The notes below the pieces were generated by a model that was not told where the DNA came from, ran no database searches, and saw only the letters and a program-made list of their open reading frames with translations. This document shows, piece by piece, positions 1,675-27,845 of a stretch of 64,000 nucleotides of DNA. How positions within the stretch are numbered: position 1 is the first letter of the stretch; each line of letters opens with the position of its first letter. This stretch comes from Enterococcus moraviensis ATCC BAA-383. Lineage in GTDB: Bacteria > Bacillota > Bacilli > Lactobacillales > Enterococcaceae. The stretch covers positions 186,001-250,000 of the forward strand of contig NZ_ASWB01000001.1 of assembly GCF_000407445.1 (NCBI RefSeq), written 5' to 3'. Made by a program: the position numbers and the translations under genes.

Positions 1675-1964
1675 CAAAAAAAGCCCTTTACTTTTCACAA
1701 AAGTAAAGGACGATTAATCGTGTTACCACCTTTAGTTTGAAAACCTCTCACAAGATTTTCCTCATTAGGTACAGATCATGAAGATCAATACCATGACGCT
1801 ATAATGGGCGTTCCCAATATCGGCTGTTCGAGTGTTGACCAATATTTACTCAAAGACCATCTTCCTGTTTTTTTAAACTATCTCTTTTCAGCTACCGAGA
1901 CTCTCTCATGAATTTTCAAAAAACAGTACTTTTCTTTTCATCGTATTTTAATTTATTCGCCATT
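1675..1964 (-). ncRNA. T-box leader, probable methionine specifier
   Basis: On the minus strand the antiterminator T-box reads AAGGTGGTAACACG (complement of 1719-1732). It is followed by a strong terminator, CCTTTACTTTTGTGAAAAGT (complement of 1690-1709) continuing into AAAGG and a T run near 1675. Upstream are Stem-I-like elements including GGTAGCTGAAAAGAG. An ATG triplet (complement of 1858-1860) sits where the specifier loop is expected, which would read tRNA-Met. The T-box and terminator are seen directly; the specifier placement is inference without a folding calculation. Confidence 0.88.
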
Positions 1965-3559: not shown

Positions 3560-3589
3560 TTGACGAACAAATCGTCTTTAGTGTAAACT
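3560..3589 (+). promoter_or_regulatory. promoter of the tryptophan leader / trpXYZ transcript
   Basis: The -35 TTGACG (3560-3565) and -10 TAAACT (3584-3589) are separated by 18 bases. It is the only good promoter match ahead of the leader peptide at 3622. Confidence 0.7.
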
Positions 3590-3621
3590 GTTTTTAACAG
3601 AAAAACTATAGGAGTGACGAC

Positions 3622-3684
3622 ATGAGCAAACTATCCCAACCAATCAAAGAATTGAATAATTCGTGGCAAAACTGGCGTAGATAG
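3622..3684 (+). CDS. 20-residue tryptophan leader peptide
   Basis: The ATG at 3622 follows TAGGAGTGACGAC, a strong ribosome site. The peptide has 20 codons and ends SWQNWRR, with TGG codons at 3664-3666 and 3673-3675, then TAG at 3682-3684. Two Trp in the last six codons of a tiny gene just ahead of a transporter for tryptophan is the signature of ribosome-mediated attenuation. The stop codon overlaps the first arm of an 8-bp stem, as expected if ribosome position decides folding. The peptide itself probably has no function other than being translated. Confidence 0.75.
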   Translation: MSKLSQPIKELNNSWQNWRR

Positions 3685-3852
3685 TTGTATGTATGATACT
3701 CTCATGGATACAACTTTAGAAGATAAATTCTAAATTTTGTATCTATGTCGGCTTCTTTAAAATGATTTTTAGACTGCATAGATGATTGATTTATGTGGTC
3801 TTTGTTTATGAAACAACGACTGCTCCTTATTAGGGTTTGTCGTTGTTTTTTT
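3683..3852 (+). promoter_or_regulatory. attenuator structures and terminator upstream of trpX
   Basis: Stem 1 pairs AGTTGTAT (3683-3690) with ATACAACT (3708-3715). A second stem pairs GACTGCATA (3772-3780) with TATGTGGTC (3792-3800), and its first arm can instead pair with ATCTATG at about 3742 through CATAGAT (3777-3783). The terminator pairs AACAACGAC (3812-3820) with GTCGTTGTT (3839-3847), followed by a run of T residues to 3852. About 200 bases then run to trpX with no further gene. The pairings are read by eye; the switching model is inference. Confidence 0.7.
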
Positions 3853-4051
3853 GTATAAAAATAATTAAGGATAAGTAGAAAGGATTTATTGTGATGAAAA
3901 TCAAATAGGATGTTATCGATACCATAGTGTTATGTTTAAAATTCTTTAAGTTGTTAAAAACAGAAGGTGAAGCTTGTTAGGCAGTAAATTAACTATTTAT
4001 TTATTAAGTTGAATAGTTGTACTAGATTTTTTAAAATTAGGAGGGAAAAAT

Positions 4052-5041
4052 ATGAGAAAGAATCGTTTATCAATAGTAGTAGTAGTACTTATTATTTTTT
4101 TAATTGGCTCATTTTTTGTAGAAAAGAAAGAGCCTACCAAAGAAAATTTACCAACAGTTGGTGTATTGCAATTTGTTAGTCATCCTGCATTAGATCAAAT
4201 TTATAAAGGAATTCAGGCTGGCTTGAAAGAAGAAGGATATGAAGATGGACGGAACATGACGATCGCTTTTCAAAATGGACAAGCTGATCAAAGTAAATTA
4301 GCCACAATGAGTCAACAATTAGTCCAAGAAAAAAAATCAGATGTCTTAATTGGGATTGCTACACCAGCTGCTCAATCACTAGCAAATACAACATCTGAAA
4401 CGCCAATAGTCCTTGGCGCAATTACGGATCCTGTCAGTGCTGGGTTAGTTAAAAGTAATCAAAAACCAGGTGGTAACATAACGGGTGTAAGTGATAAATC
4501 ACCAGTAGATGCTCAATTCGATTTAATCACTAAACTATTACCTGATAGAAAAAAAGTAGGGATCCTCTACGCTTCTTCAGAAGAAAATTCCAAATACCAA
4601 GTTGAAGAGGCAAAAAAAATTGCAGAGGAAAAAGGATTTTCAGTAAAAAGCTTCGCAGTCCCTTCTAGTAATGAAATTGCTCAGACTGTCCAAGTGATGA
4701 CAAGCGAAGTCGATATTATTTATATTCCTACGGATAATACAATCGCTAACGCAATGCAAACAGTGGTAAATGAAGCGAATAAAACCCAAACACCAATTAT
4801 TCCATCTGTAGATTCAATGGTTGAACAAGGCGGTGTAGCGACAGTAGGTATCAATCAATTTGATCTAGGTGTGCAGACAGGCAAAATGGCTGCAGCAATT
4901 TTATCTGGAAAAGCGAAACCAGCTACAACACCTATTTATACGTTTAAAACTGGCGACATCATTATCAACCAAAAACAGGCAAAAAAATTAGGAATAACAA
5001 TTCCTGAGGAAATCAAGTCAAAAGCAAAAATAATAGAATAA
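4052..5041 (+). CDS. trpX: tryptophan ABC transporter substrate-binding protein
   Basis: The 329-residue protein belongs to the ABC_sub_bind family (TrpX type), with two alpha/beta lobes. The start of lobe 1 is PTVGVLQFVSHPALDQIYKG, and the hinge region includes LIGIATPAAQSLA and PIVLGAITDPVSAGLV. The N-terminus has one hydrophobic helix (residues 7-23, ending GSFFVEKKE) but no lipobox Cys, so the protein seems to be held by an uncleaved helix rather than by lipid. The ribosome site is AGGAGGG. It leads an operon with permease and ATPase genes behind a Trp-codon leader, which supports tryptophan as ligand. Confidence 0.85.
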   Translation: MRKNRLSIVVVVLIIFLIGSFFVEKKEPTKENLPTVGVLQFVSHPALDQIYKGIQAGLKEEGYEDGRNMTIAFQNGQADQSKLATMSQQLVQEKKSDVLIGIATPAAQSLANTTSETPIVLGAITDPVSAGLVKSNQKPGGNITGVSDKSPVDAQFDLITKLLPDRKKVGILYASSEENSKYQVEEAKKIAEEKGFSVKSFAVPSSNEIAQTVQVMTSEVDIIYIPTDNTIANAMQTVVNEANKTQTPIIPSVDSMVEQGGVATVGINQFDLGVQTGKMAAAILSGKAKPATTPIYTFKTGDIIINQKQAKKLGITIPEEIKSKAKIIE

Positions 5042-5065: not shown

Positions 5066-5953
5066 ATGATAGTTTCAGCAATTGGTCAAGGAATGTTATG
5101 GGCAATATTAGGATTAGGCATATTTATGACCTATCGAATTTTAAACTTTCCAGATATGACAACAGAAGGATCTTTCCCATTGGGAGGAGCAGTTTGTGTT
5201 ACAGCGATTACTTCGGGGATCCACCCGATTTTAGCAACATTATTAGGCGTTTTAGCTGGTATGTGTGCTGGTTTGGTGACGGGGTTACTTTTTACTAAAG
5301 GAAAAATACCAGTTATTTTGGCGGGAATTTTAGTAATGTCTGGATTGAACTCAGTGATTCTATATGTGATGCAGACACCTAATTTATCATTGTTGAATAA
5401 GCCGAAAATTCAAGATTTCTTTTTACAATTAAATCTACCAAACTATTATGACATCGTATTTTTAGGCGTGATTTTTCTAGCAATCATTATTAGTTTGTTA
5501 TTATTTTTCTTTAATACGAATTTAGGACAAGCGTATATTGCAACAGGTGACAATGAACATATGGCACGTTCAATTGGAATCAAAACAGATTCAATGAAAA
5601 TTTTAGGGTTAACATTGTCAAATGGTGTAATAGCCTTATCAGGCGCTTTAATCGCTCAAAATGATGGATATGCCGATGTCAATAAAGGAACAGGCGTGAT
5701 CGTTATCGGACTTGCATCAATTATTATAGGCGAGGTATTGTTCGGAGAACTAACGTTTGCTGAACGTTTAGTTGCAATCGTTGTGGGAAGTATTATCTAT
5801 CAATTGCTTATTTTAGTTGTAATCAAGCTAGGATTTGATACAACATACTTGAAAATCTTCTCAGCGGTGATTCTGGCTGCATGCTTAATGATTCCACAAC
5901 TTAAAAAAGCGTTAAATCTGAACTTTTTACCGCAAAAGGAGGGTGAAAAATGA
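5066..5953 (+). CDS. trpY: tryptophan ABC transporter permease
   Basis: The 295-residue protein is strongly hydrophobic with about eight transmembrane segments, of the branched-chain-amino-acid/ribose-type permease family that accompanies ABC_sub_bind proteins. The conserved cytoplasmic loop that contacts the ATPase is visible as AYIATGDNEHMARSIGIKTD. It begins 24 bases after trpX behind GAGGAGAG and overlaps the next gene by 4 bases (ATGA), so all three genes are one translationally linked transcript. It forms the membrane channel of the importer. Confidence 0.88.
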   Translation: MIVSAIGQGMLWAILGLGIFMTYRILNFPDMTTEGSFPLGGAVCVTAITSGIHPILATLLGVLAGMCAGLVTGLLFTKGKIPVILAGILVMSGLNSVILYVMQTPNLSLLNKPKIQDFFLQLNLPNYYDIVFLGVIFLAIIISLLLFFFNTNLGQAYIATGDNEHMARSIGIKTDSMKILGLTLSNGVIALSGALIAQNDGYADVNKGTGVIVIGLASIIIGEVLFGELTFAERLVAIVVGSIIYQLLILVVIKLGFDTTYLKIFSAVILAACLMIPQLKKALNLNFLPQKEGEK

Positions 5954-6735
5954 GTACAGTTTTAGAACTTAGAGACGCAACTAAACGTATTGGTAATGGT
6001 GTAGACGAAACGAAAGTCATCTTAAATCACGTCAATTTGAAAATTGCTCAAGGCGAATTTGTCACAGTTCTAGGGGGGAATGGAGCTGGTAAGAGTACTC
6101 TATTCAACAGTATTGCTGGAACATTGACTTTATCTGAAGGTGATTTATTTATAAACGAACAAAATATCACAGCTTATTCTGAAGAAAAGCGGGCAAAATA
6201 CTTATCCCGAGTTTTCCAAGACCCTAAAATGGGGACGGCACCGAGAATGACCGTTGCAGAAAATCTATTATTAGCCTTGTATCGTGGCAAAAGACGCGGA
6301 TTACGGTTACGTAAATTAAATGAGGAAAGGACATTTTTCACCAAAATTTGTAGTGAAGTTGGAAATGGCTTAGAGAATCATTTGGATACACCAACTGGAA
6401 ATCTTTCTGGCGGTCAAAGGCAAGCATTGAGCTTATTGATGGCGACATTGACAAAGCCAGAATTACTTCTTTTAGATGAGCATACAGCAGCACTTGATCC
6501 TAAGACATCGAAACAATTGATGCAATTGACAGATCAGCGAATTAAAGAAGGTGAATTGACGTGTCTAATGATTACACATCGTATGGAAGATGCGCTCCAT
6601 TATGGTAACAGACTGATTGTATTACAAAAAGGACAGATCGTGAAAGACTTAAATAAAGAGGAAAAAGAAAAACTAACGTTACAGGATTTGTTATTGTTTT
6701 TTGAAGAAGAAGCCGAAGAAATAGCGATTGATTAA
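5950..6735 (+). CDS. trpZ: tryptophan ABC transporter ATP-binding protein
   Basis: The 261-residue ATPase has all catalytic motifs: Walker A GGNGAGKST (residues 42-50), signature LSGGQRQ, Walker B LLLLDEHTAALDP and the H-loop His in MITHRMEDA. DEH in place of the common DEP after Walker B is usual in this subfamily. It overlaps the permease gene by 4 bases and powers the importer. A strong bidirectional terminator follows at 6738-6786. Confidence 0.9.
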   Translation: MSTVLELRDATKRIGNGVDETKVILNHVNLKIAQGEFVTVLGGNGAGKSTLFNSIAGTLTLSEGDLFINEQNITAYSEEKRAKYLSRVFQDPKMGTAPRMTVAENLLLALYRGKRRGLRLRKLNEERTFFTKICSEVGNGLENHLDTPTGNLSGGQRQALSLLMATLTKPELLLLDEHTAALDPKTSKQLMQLTDQRIKEGELTCLMITHRMEDALHYGNRLIVLQKGQIVKDLNKEEKEKLTLQDLLLFFEEEAEEIAID

Positions 6736-27689: not shown

Positions 27690-27845
27690 TAATCCTTTAA
27701 GAGTAGTCCCGTGAGGCTAAGAAGGAAACATGCAGAACAATATCTAGGTGCGCTTAGAAAAAATCTGTGTGAAATGAATAGTATCTTTGTATAGATAAAT
27801 TCAATCCTCCTATCCGAACACGGGTGGGAGGATTTTTGTTTTTCA
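27690..27845 (+). promoter_or_regulatory. PyrR-binding attenuator of the pyr operon
   Basis: The anti-antiterminator contains AGTCCCGTGAGGCT (27705-27718) followed by AAGAAGGA, matching the PyrR RNA consensus. The terminator pairs AATCCTCCTATCCG (27803-27816) with 27821-27834 (wobble pairs included), followed by TTTTTGTTTTT. With UMP bound, PyrR holds the first hairpin and allows termination. The RNA motif is seen directly; the mechanism is established for this family in Bacillus and enterococci. Confidence 0.92.

Follow-up and report, generated by a model that had tools for sequence, protein, structure and literature searches.

The leader region of a trpXYZ-like operon

We analysed a 64,000-nucleotide (nt) stretch of Enterococcus moraviensis ATCC BAA-383 (contig NZ_ASWB01000001.1, positions 186,001 to 250,000; hereafter the window, numbered from its first letter), in which a trpXYZ-like operon is preceded by a short leader open reading frame (ORF) and a chain of RNA hairpins, all on the plus strand. 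The leader ORF (3622-3684) encodes the 20-codon peptide MSKLSQPIKELNNSWQNWRR, with tryptophan (Trp) codons at 3664-3666 and 3673-3675 and a stop codon at 3682-3684. Its ribosome site, AGGAG at 3610-3614, lies 7 nt from the start, and the same AGGAG occurs in ten loci (L003-L012). The gene at 4052-5041 encodes TrpX, the substrate-binding protein of a tryptophan ATP-binding cassette (ABC) transporter (NF041285, 480.5 bits against a cut-off of 390, E = 2.2e-144). The two genes that follow were assigned on weaker evidence: a trpY-like permease (5066-5953) by its position and weak matches, to permease models only, and a trpZ-like ATP-binding protein (5950-6735) by its position and by ABC ATPase models, none above cut-off among the 25 matches listed.

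The RNA between the stop codon and trpX can pair in several mutually incompatible ways. Strand A (3683-3696) pairs with strand B (3702-3715), and this helix includes the final two bases of the stop codon. Strand B can instead pair with strand C (3737-3751), through 3703-3713 and 3737-3747. Strand C is contested, since its possible partners are B, strand D, and a segment named Z that comprises the sensor and stop codons; in the window, helix 1 of alignment A1 (98.0% of cells paired) falls at 3672-3683, a segment also covered by a duplex test of own against swapped partners on the family. Strand D (3771-3783) is the 5' arm of terminator 1, and its bases 3776-3783 can join 3741-3748 of C as an antiterminator. 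Strand E (3789-3801) provides the 3' arm of this terminator, whose hairpin (3771-3801) ends in the tail TTGTTTATGA. A second terminator-like hairpin (3811-3848) consists of strand F (3811-3820) and strand G (3839-3848, or 3839-3852 with its T run), and F is complementary to E together with its T tract, the pairing in the window being 3798-3807 with 3811-3820. The region folds with unusual stability (z-score -5.75 for 3590-3862 and -7.25 for 3685-3862; none of 200 shuffles equalled either). The initial annotation had described a 20-codon ORF with a ribosome site and the ending SWQNWRR, a stop codon overlapping a hairpin arm, an alternative pairing around 3742-3783, a terminator with a T run and a tryptophan importer downstream; each of these is present, and there are even two terminator-like hairpins.

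Further upstream, a consensus scan gave a promoter-like pair, TTGACG and TAAACT with an 18-nt spacer (3560-3589, 9 of 12 positions matching), which is a weak candidate because the scan returned 5 sites in the region against 3.7 expected. A short inverted repeat, GACGAACAAATCGTC, at 3562-3576 overlaps the -35 element and may be an operator or a chance occurrence.

Conservation and folding of trpX leaders

To place the leader in context, we collected 74 loci from a TrpX scan. A script that looked for ORFs with two or more Trp codons behind a ribosome site recovered such a leader in 62 of them (L003-L066 except L017 and L061); ORFs that it also gave in L068 and L073 were judged unrelated and left out. 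The C motif and terminator were found by script in 57 of the 62 leaders, with L048 added by eye. A set of 59 leaders combines the window with 58 loci preselected for two Trp codons and a ribosome site; given that selection, the universal presence of the site is no test. Counting back with the last residue as position one, 57 of the 59 have Trp at position six and 51 at position three. The second hairpin was detected by script in 52 of the 58 trpX leaders having terminator 1, those of L032, L046, L055 and L062 being weak or misplaced, and E:F duplexes scored -454 with their own partners versus -388 with swapped ones (standard deviation 13; best of 5000, -443). In Tetragenococcus the stop codon has shifted into strand A (ending WQSWYKTLY) with strands A-E kept, and the RNA model still matched, with E = 9e-19 or lower in each of the seven loci searched.

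The two-Trp leader was not found in the remaining 12 of the 74 loci (L017, L061 and L067-L076). Among these, the RNA model matched L017 (E = 5.7e-22), L067 and L068 (both 4.8e-5) and, weakly, L072 (0.034); the other eight, L061 from Bifidobacterium and seven loci of 28-51% identity, have a transporter homologue with neither a Trp leader nor an RNA match. The initial annotation had named transporter orthologues with neither peptide nor stems as evidence against it. Such loci do occur (8 of 74), and the leader is conserved elsewhere (62 of 74), which indicates that the element is limited to certain lineages rather than refuted. Two further groups of leaders were noted. In Bifidobacterium, trpX loci L047, L049, L052 and L063 have a Trp leader ending WRGWRS but no recognisable RNA chain, and six TrpX leaders of family f142 (L197, L198 and L207-L210) have a single Trp, in the endings WQSQNR, WHNQDR, WQSQDR and WQSRHRRVV.

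To relate ribosome position to hairpin choice, we folded partial transcripts with a ribosome footprint of 13 masked nt that began at the first base of the A-site codon. For the window, the probability of the antiterminator C:D was 0.01 when the stop codon was occupied, 0.58 for a ribosome on the second Trp codon and 0.81 for one on the first, and 0.10 without translation. The trpX leaders behaved alike: of 58 usable among 59, C:D exceeded 0.5 in 3 with the ribosome at the stop, 42 at the second Trp codon, 50 at the first and 4 when untranslated. The leader region combines a short ORF, preceded by a ribosome site and rich in codons for the amino acid under control, with mutually exclusive terminator and antiterminator hairpins between which, in these folds, the ribosome's position is predicted to choose, as expected of an attenuator. 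Conservation of the Trp peptide, covarying helices, the TrpX assignment and partial-transcript folding all agree with the initial proposal of ribosome-mediated attenuation, and we conclude that the window element is very probably a transcription attenuator that senses Trp supply.

These folds suggest the following switch. When Trp is plentiful, the ribosome would reach the stop codon and cover both Z and A, leaving B to pair with C and the terminator D:E to form. When Trp is scarce, a ribosome stalled on a Trp codon would cover Z and leave A free, so that A pairs with B, C joins D and no terminator appears. In leaders with a second terminator, the E strand freed from D would pair with F and block F:G as well. 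Without translation, A:B would form, C would be held by upstream coding RNA, and the terminator would again result. The partner of C in this last state is predicted to be Z in the family pattern, and Z or the start-codon region in the window, depending on where the transcript ends. In the untranslated fold of the window the start-codon region competes with Z, the leader start region 3596-3657 being predicted to hold C (3740-3751) in five of six transcript choices; in this model, such pairing is a possible second route for locking the switch off without a ribosome. With E transcribed, the equilibrium favours D:E, and read-through must therefore depend on a kinetic state. The evidence is computational throughout: it shows the peptide, the helices, the co-variation of sensor codons with C and the agreement of codon class with gene, and from it we infer the stalling, kinetics, read-through and response to Trp.

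TnaC is a nascent-peptide arrest switch, and a mechanism of that kind would read the same leader differently: a peptide in the ribosomal tunnel would sense free Trp and arrest the ribosome at the stop codon, covering A and causing termination. The strong conservation of the WxxWRR ending in the trpX set would suit such a peptide, and arrest at the stop likewise predicts termination at high Trp. However, the same RNA carries endings as diverse as WRR, WYKTLY, WQSQNR, FSYFR, HHHR and LLLLANLR, and complementarity of Z to C can account for the conserved Arg-stop. We therefore regard peptide arrest as highly improbable.

Sensor-codon classes and downstream genes

The element is not a local peculiarity but belongs to a family of several specificities. 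R1, the covariance model built from alignment A1, matched 268 of 395 Lactobacillales genomes in 62 of 80 genera (counting Enterococcaceae, which are near the training set) and, outside Lactobacillales, 41 of 146 genomes in 18 of 46 genera of the Bacillota family of genome G359, whereas only 7 of 398 genomes sampled across the phylum were matched. We examined 138 places, 79 of 80 from 30 Lactobacillales genomes picked from those with matches and 59 of 63 from the family of G359; four of the five remaining places were opposite to or overlapped an examined one. In 110 of the 138, an ORF with a ribosome site ended no more than 15 nt from the stop position in the model; over 40 shufflings of the upstream sequence this count averaged 20.1 and never exceeded 32. 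By codon class, 126 elements comprise 74 tyrosine/phenylalanine (Tyr/Phe), 32 Trp, 11 isoleucine/leucine/valine (Ile/Leu/Val) and 9 histidine (His) leaders, after hand correction of 10 labels, exclusion of 11 loci by hand and the loss of L302 by the script. A Fusobacterium vincentii record (labelled plasmid, 2.1 Mb) also contains a leader ending WQNWHR that scores 68.5 bits with the Rfam model RF04312. In Cetobacterium somerae plasmid p1 (L312, 1265-1339), a leader ending FWWWP and a hairpin chain precede an SLC6 transporter; R1 did not detect this leader. The best reading is a homologous family with exchangeable sensor codons, present in Lactobacillales, one other Bacillota family and Fusobacterium.

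Across this family, the sensor codons can pair with antiterminator strand C and co-vary with it. On A1 itself, covariation was absent for B:C and weak for C:D. The same chassis with swapped codons would serve Tyr, Phe, His and Ile/Leu/Val genes, and in partial-transcript folds the antiterminator arose mainly with the ribosome stalled at a sensor codon. The numbers of leaders with C:D above 0.5 for a ribosome at the stop, at -12, at -21 and absent were 0, 11, 16 and 6 in the Trp set (30 usable of 32), 2, 26, 38 and 8 in the Tyr/Phe set (54 of 74), 2, 8, 6 and 1 in the His set (9), and 1, 4, 8 and 2 in the Ile/Leu/Val set (10 of 11).

The codon class matches the downstream gene. We found a downstream ORF for 120 of the 126 elements, clustered these and annotated representatives; the L286 gene lies outside the annotated set. 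PF04392 binding proteins follow 28 Trp and 24 Tyr/Phe leaders, SLC6 transporters 27 Tyr/Phe and 4 Leu leaders, and hisS/hisZ-like genes 9 His leaders. Tyr/Phe-class leaders also precede a BPD_transp_2 permease group (6, FNSQFR and similar), aroE (4), SBP-type amino-acid binding proteins (3) and BrnQ-type carriers (3, a less obvious fit), and two Trp leaders precede trpB. Among the other leaders, VNIISIIR precedes threonine ammonia-lyase, AAIISIIR a class IV aminotransferase, NLLISVIR a thiamine-diphosphate enzyme similar to acetolactate synthase, VYFSYFR prephenate dehydratase, and IIISIIIR and LLSLSILR branched-chain binding proteins. The fit is absent or uncertain in three single cases, a CitMHS transporter (L264), a TIM-barrel protein (L203) and a phosphotransferase system (PTS) permease (L256); at L256 the leader ends SWQGWHRIK, and the PTS permease is the nearest long ORF, almost 1 kb away. 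In a tree of 74 PF04392-type proteins, one fully supported branch divides the Trp label from the Tyr/Phe labels, and the four labels can be explained by 3 changes; shuffled labels averaged 28.4, and none of 200 shufflings came as low.

Relation to described RNAs and regulators

Part of this element has been described under other names. RF04312, the 'trpB ncRNA motif', matches the window at 3701-3810 with 54.9 bits (E = 5e-7 for the stretch), short of its gathering score of 59, which makes the window a below-threshold relative; 4 of 20 sources (L012, L013, L016 and L019) pass it. Its publication put the motif forward as a strong riboswitch candidate, SRC-39-1, with more than 900 representatives in Firmicutes and Fusobacteria, whose most frequent position is ahead of an uncharacterised ABC transporter (Narunsky 2024, PMC11109978). 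Its RNA corresponds to B through terminator E of the window element, while Z, A, the sensor-codon classes and the second terminator fall outside the model. That publication and the presence of a terminator and strong structure would suit the original proposal for the motif, a metabolite-binding riboswitch whose hairpins fold into an aptamer recognising a ligand related to amino acids. The model, however, starts after the stop codon and so leaves the leader ORF out. Across 40 genomes, selected because R1 had matched them, there were 44 RF04312 matches, spread over 33 of the genomes. A leader peptide directly precedes 43 of these matches, the exception being L267 with an unclear ORF containing FWW, and by hand comparison 42 coincide with R1 matches. 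Moreover, a single RNA core occurs ahead of Trp, Tyr/Phe, His and Ile/Leu/Val genes, with codons that vary with the gene, and we consider a riboswitch highly unlikely. The authors did not exclude a protein factor or classic attenuator and stated that most of their candidates were untested; in the main text, the term 'leader peptide' is absent, and the passages on upstream ORFs that we consulted treat other motifs (PMC11109978).

A second relative is sRNA_2410 (RF02863), reported as an E. faecium small RNA (sRNA) with two transcripts on Northern blots (Sinel 2017, PMC5593968). It is the Tyr/Phe-codon version of the leader chassis. The window misses the RF02863 threshold of 61 (3668-3781, 23.2 bits), and a different locus in this genome reaches 142.7 bits. 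The RF02863 model starts within the last leader-ORF codons rather than upstream of the start codon, and RNA processing may account for this 5' end. The paper describes an sRNA, and 'leader', 'attenuat' and 'tyrosine' are absent from its main text (PMC5593968). This report could point to a stand-alone sRNA, or a mere pair of terminators, that leaves the downstream gene unregulated, as could the complete Trp leader of F. vincentii (L316, 1501-1660), which has no plus-strand ORF of at least 120 amino acids within 1.5 kb downstream. Codon class nevertheless matches the downstream gene over unrelated gene families and co-variation spans alternative structures, which makes this reading extremely unlikely; terminated leaders would resemble sRNAs. 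In the open-access literature, to which our survey was confined (subscription papers lay outside it), we found no work that connects leader peptides with the trpB motif and sRNA_2410.

Together, these observations make it likely that Lactobacillales, another Bacillota family and Fusobacterium share one homologous, programmable attenuator class with a T-box-like breadth of amino acids, in which the sensor codons double as the helix arm locking the antiterminator strand, the orphan riboswitch candidate and the sRNA are members, and the codons predict substrates of uncharacterised transporter paralogues. Because the codons are such an arm, each change of specificity would have needed matched codon and RNA changes, and the family would offer a natural series for regulatory specificity change under joint coding and RNA-pairing constraint. 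If so, a riboswitch candidate with more than 900 published representatives (PMC11109978) becomes a leader-peptide attenuator family, an enterococcal sRNA is explained, and leader codons directly predict the substrates of many ABC and SLC6 transporter paralogues.

The initial annotation considered ribosome-mediated attenuation with Trp codons much less described in Gram-positives than T-boxes or TRAP, the usual controls of their tryptophan genes; ribosome-mediated attenuation is, however, already documented in Bacillota for his and ilv genes. His-codon leaders precede hisS/hisZ and his operons (Naville 2010, PMC2965389; Rodionov 2022, PMC9413887), as do our nine His elements before hisS/hisZ, but were published as separate lineage-specific systems; 'tryptophan' and 'tyrosine' are absent from the main text of the former, and kinship with other leaders was not found in the portion of the latter consulted. 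Rli60 of Listeria, tested by mutation (PMC5864092), and the S. aureus ilv leader (PMC5794164) are by description likewise Bacillota ribosome-mediated attenuators, of branched-chain genes. In Streptococcus suis the same operon, trpXYZ, is controlled by a T-box sensing tRNA-Trp charging (PMC9382623), which, unlike the present element, binds tRNA directly and without an ORF. In the window and 33 of the 74 trpX loci, Rfam T-boxes above the gathering score occurred only on the other strand (window 1703-1950; L003 796-1044). The minus-strand T-box at 1703-1950 (106.6 bits) lies ahead of a methionine-synthase-like gene (524-1639), so a T-box and a leader-peptide attenuator adjoin in the same stretch. 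A PyrR binding site also matches at 27690-27839 (54.9 bits, cut-off 54).

The enteric trp, his and phe leader-peptide attenuators combine a coding leader containing sensor codons with alternating hairpins and an intrinsic terminator, and the window family shares all three. It differs in that its sensor codons can base-pair with the antiterminator strand, most trpX leaders have a second, chained terminator, and one chassis serves several amino acids.
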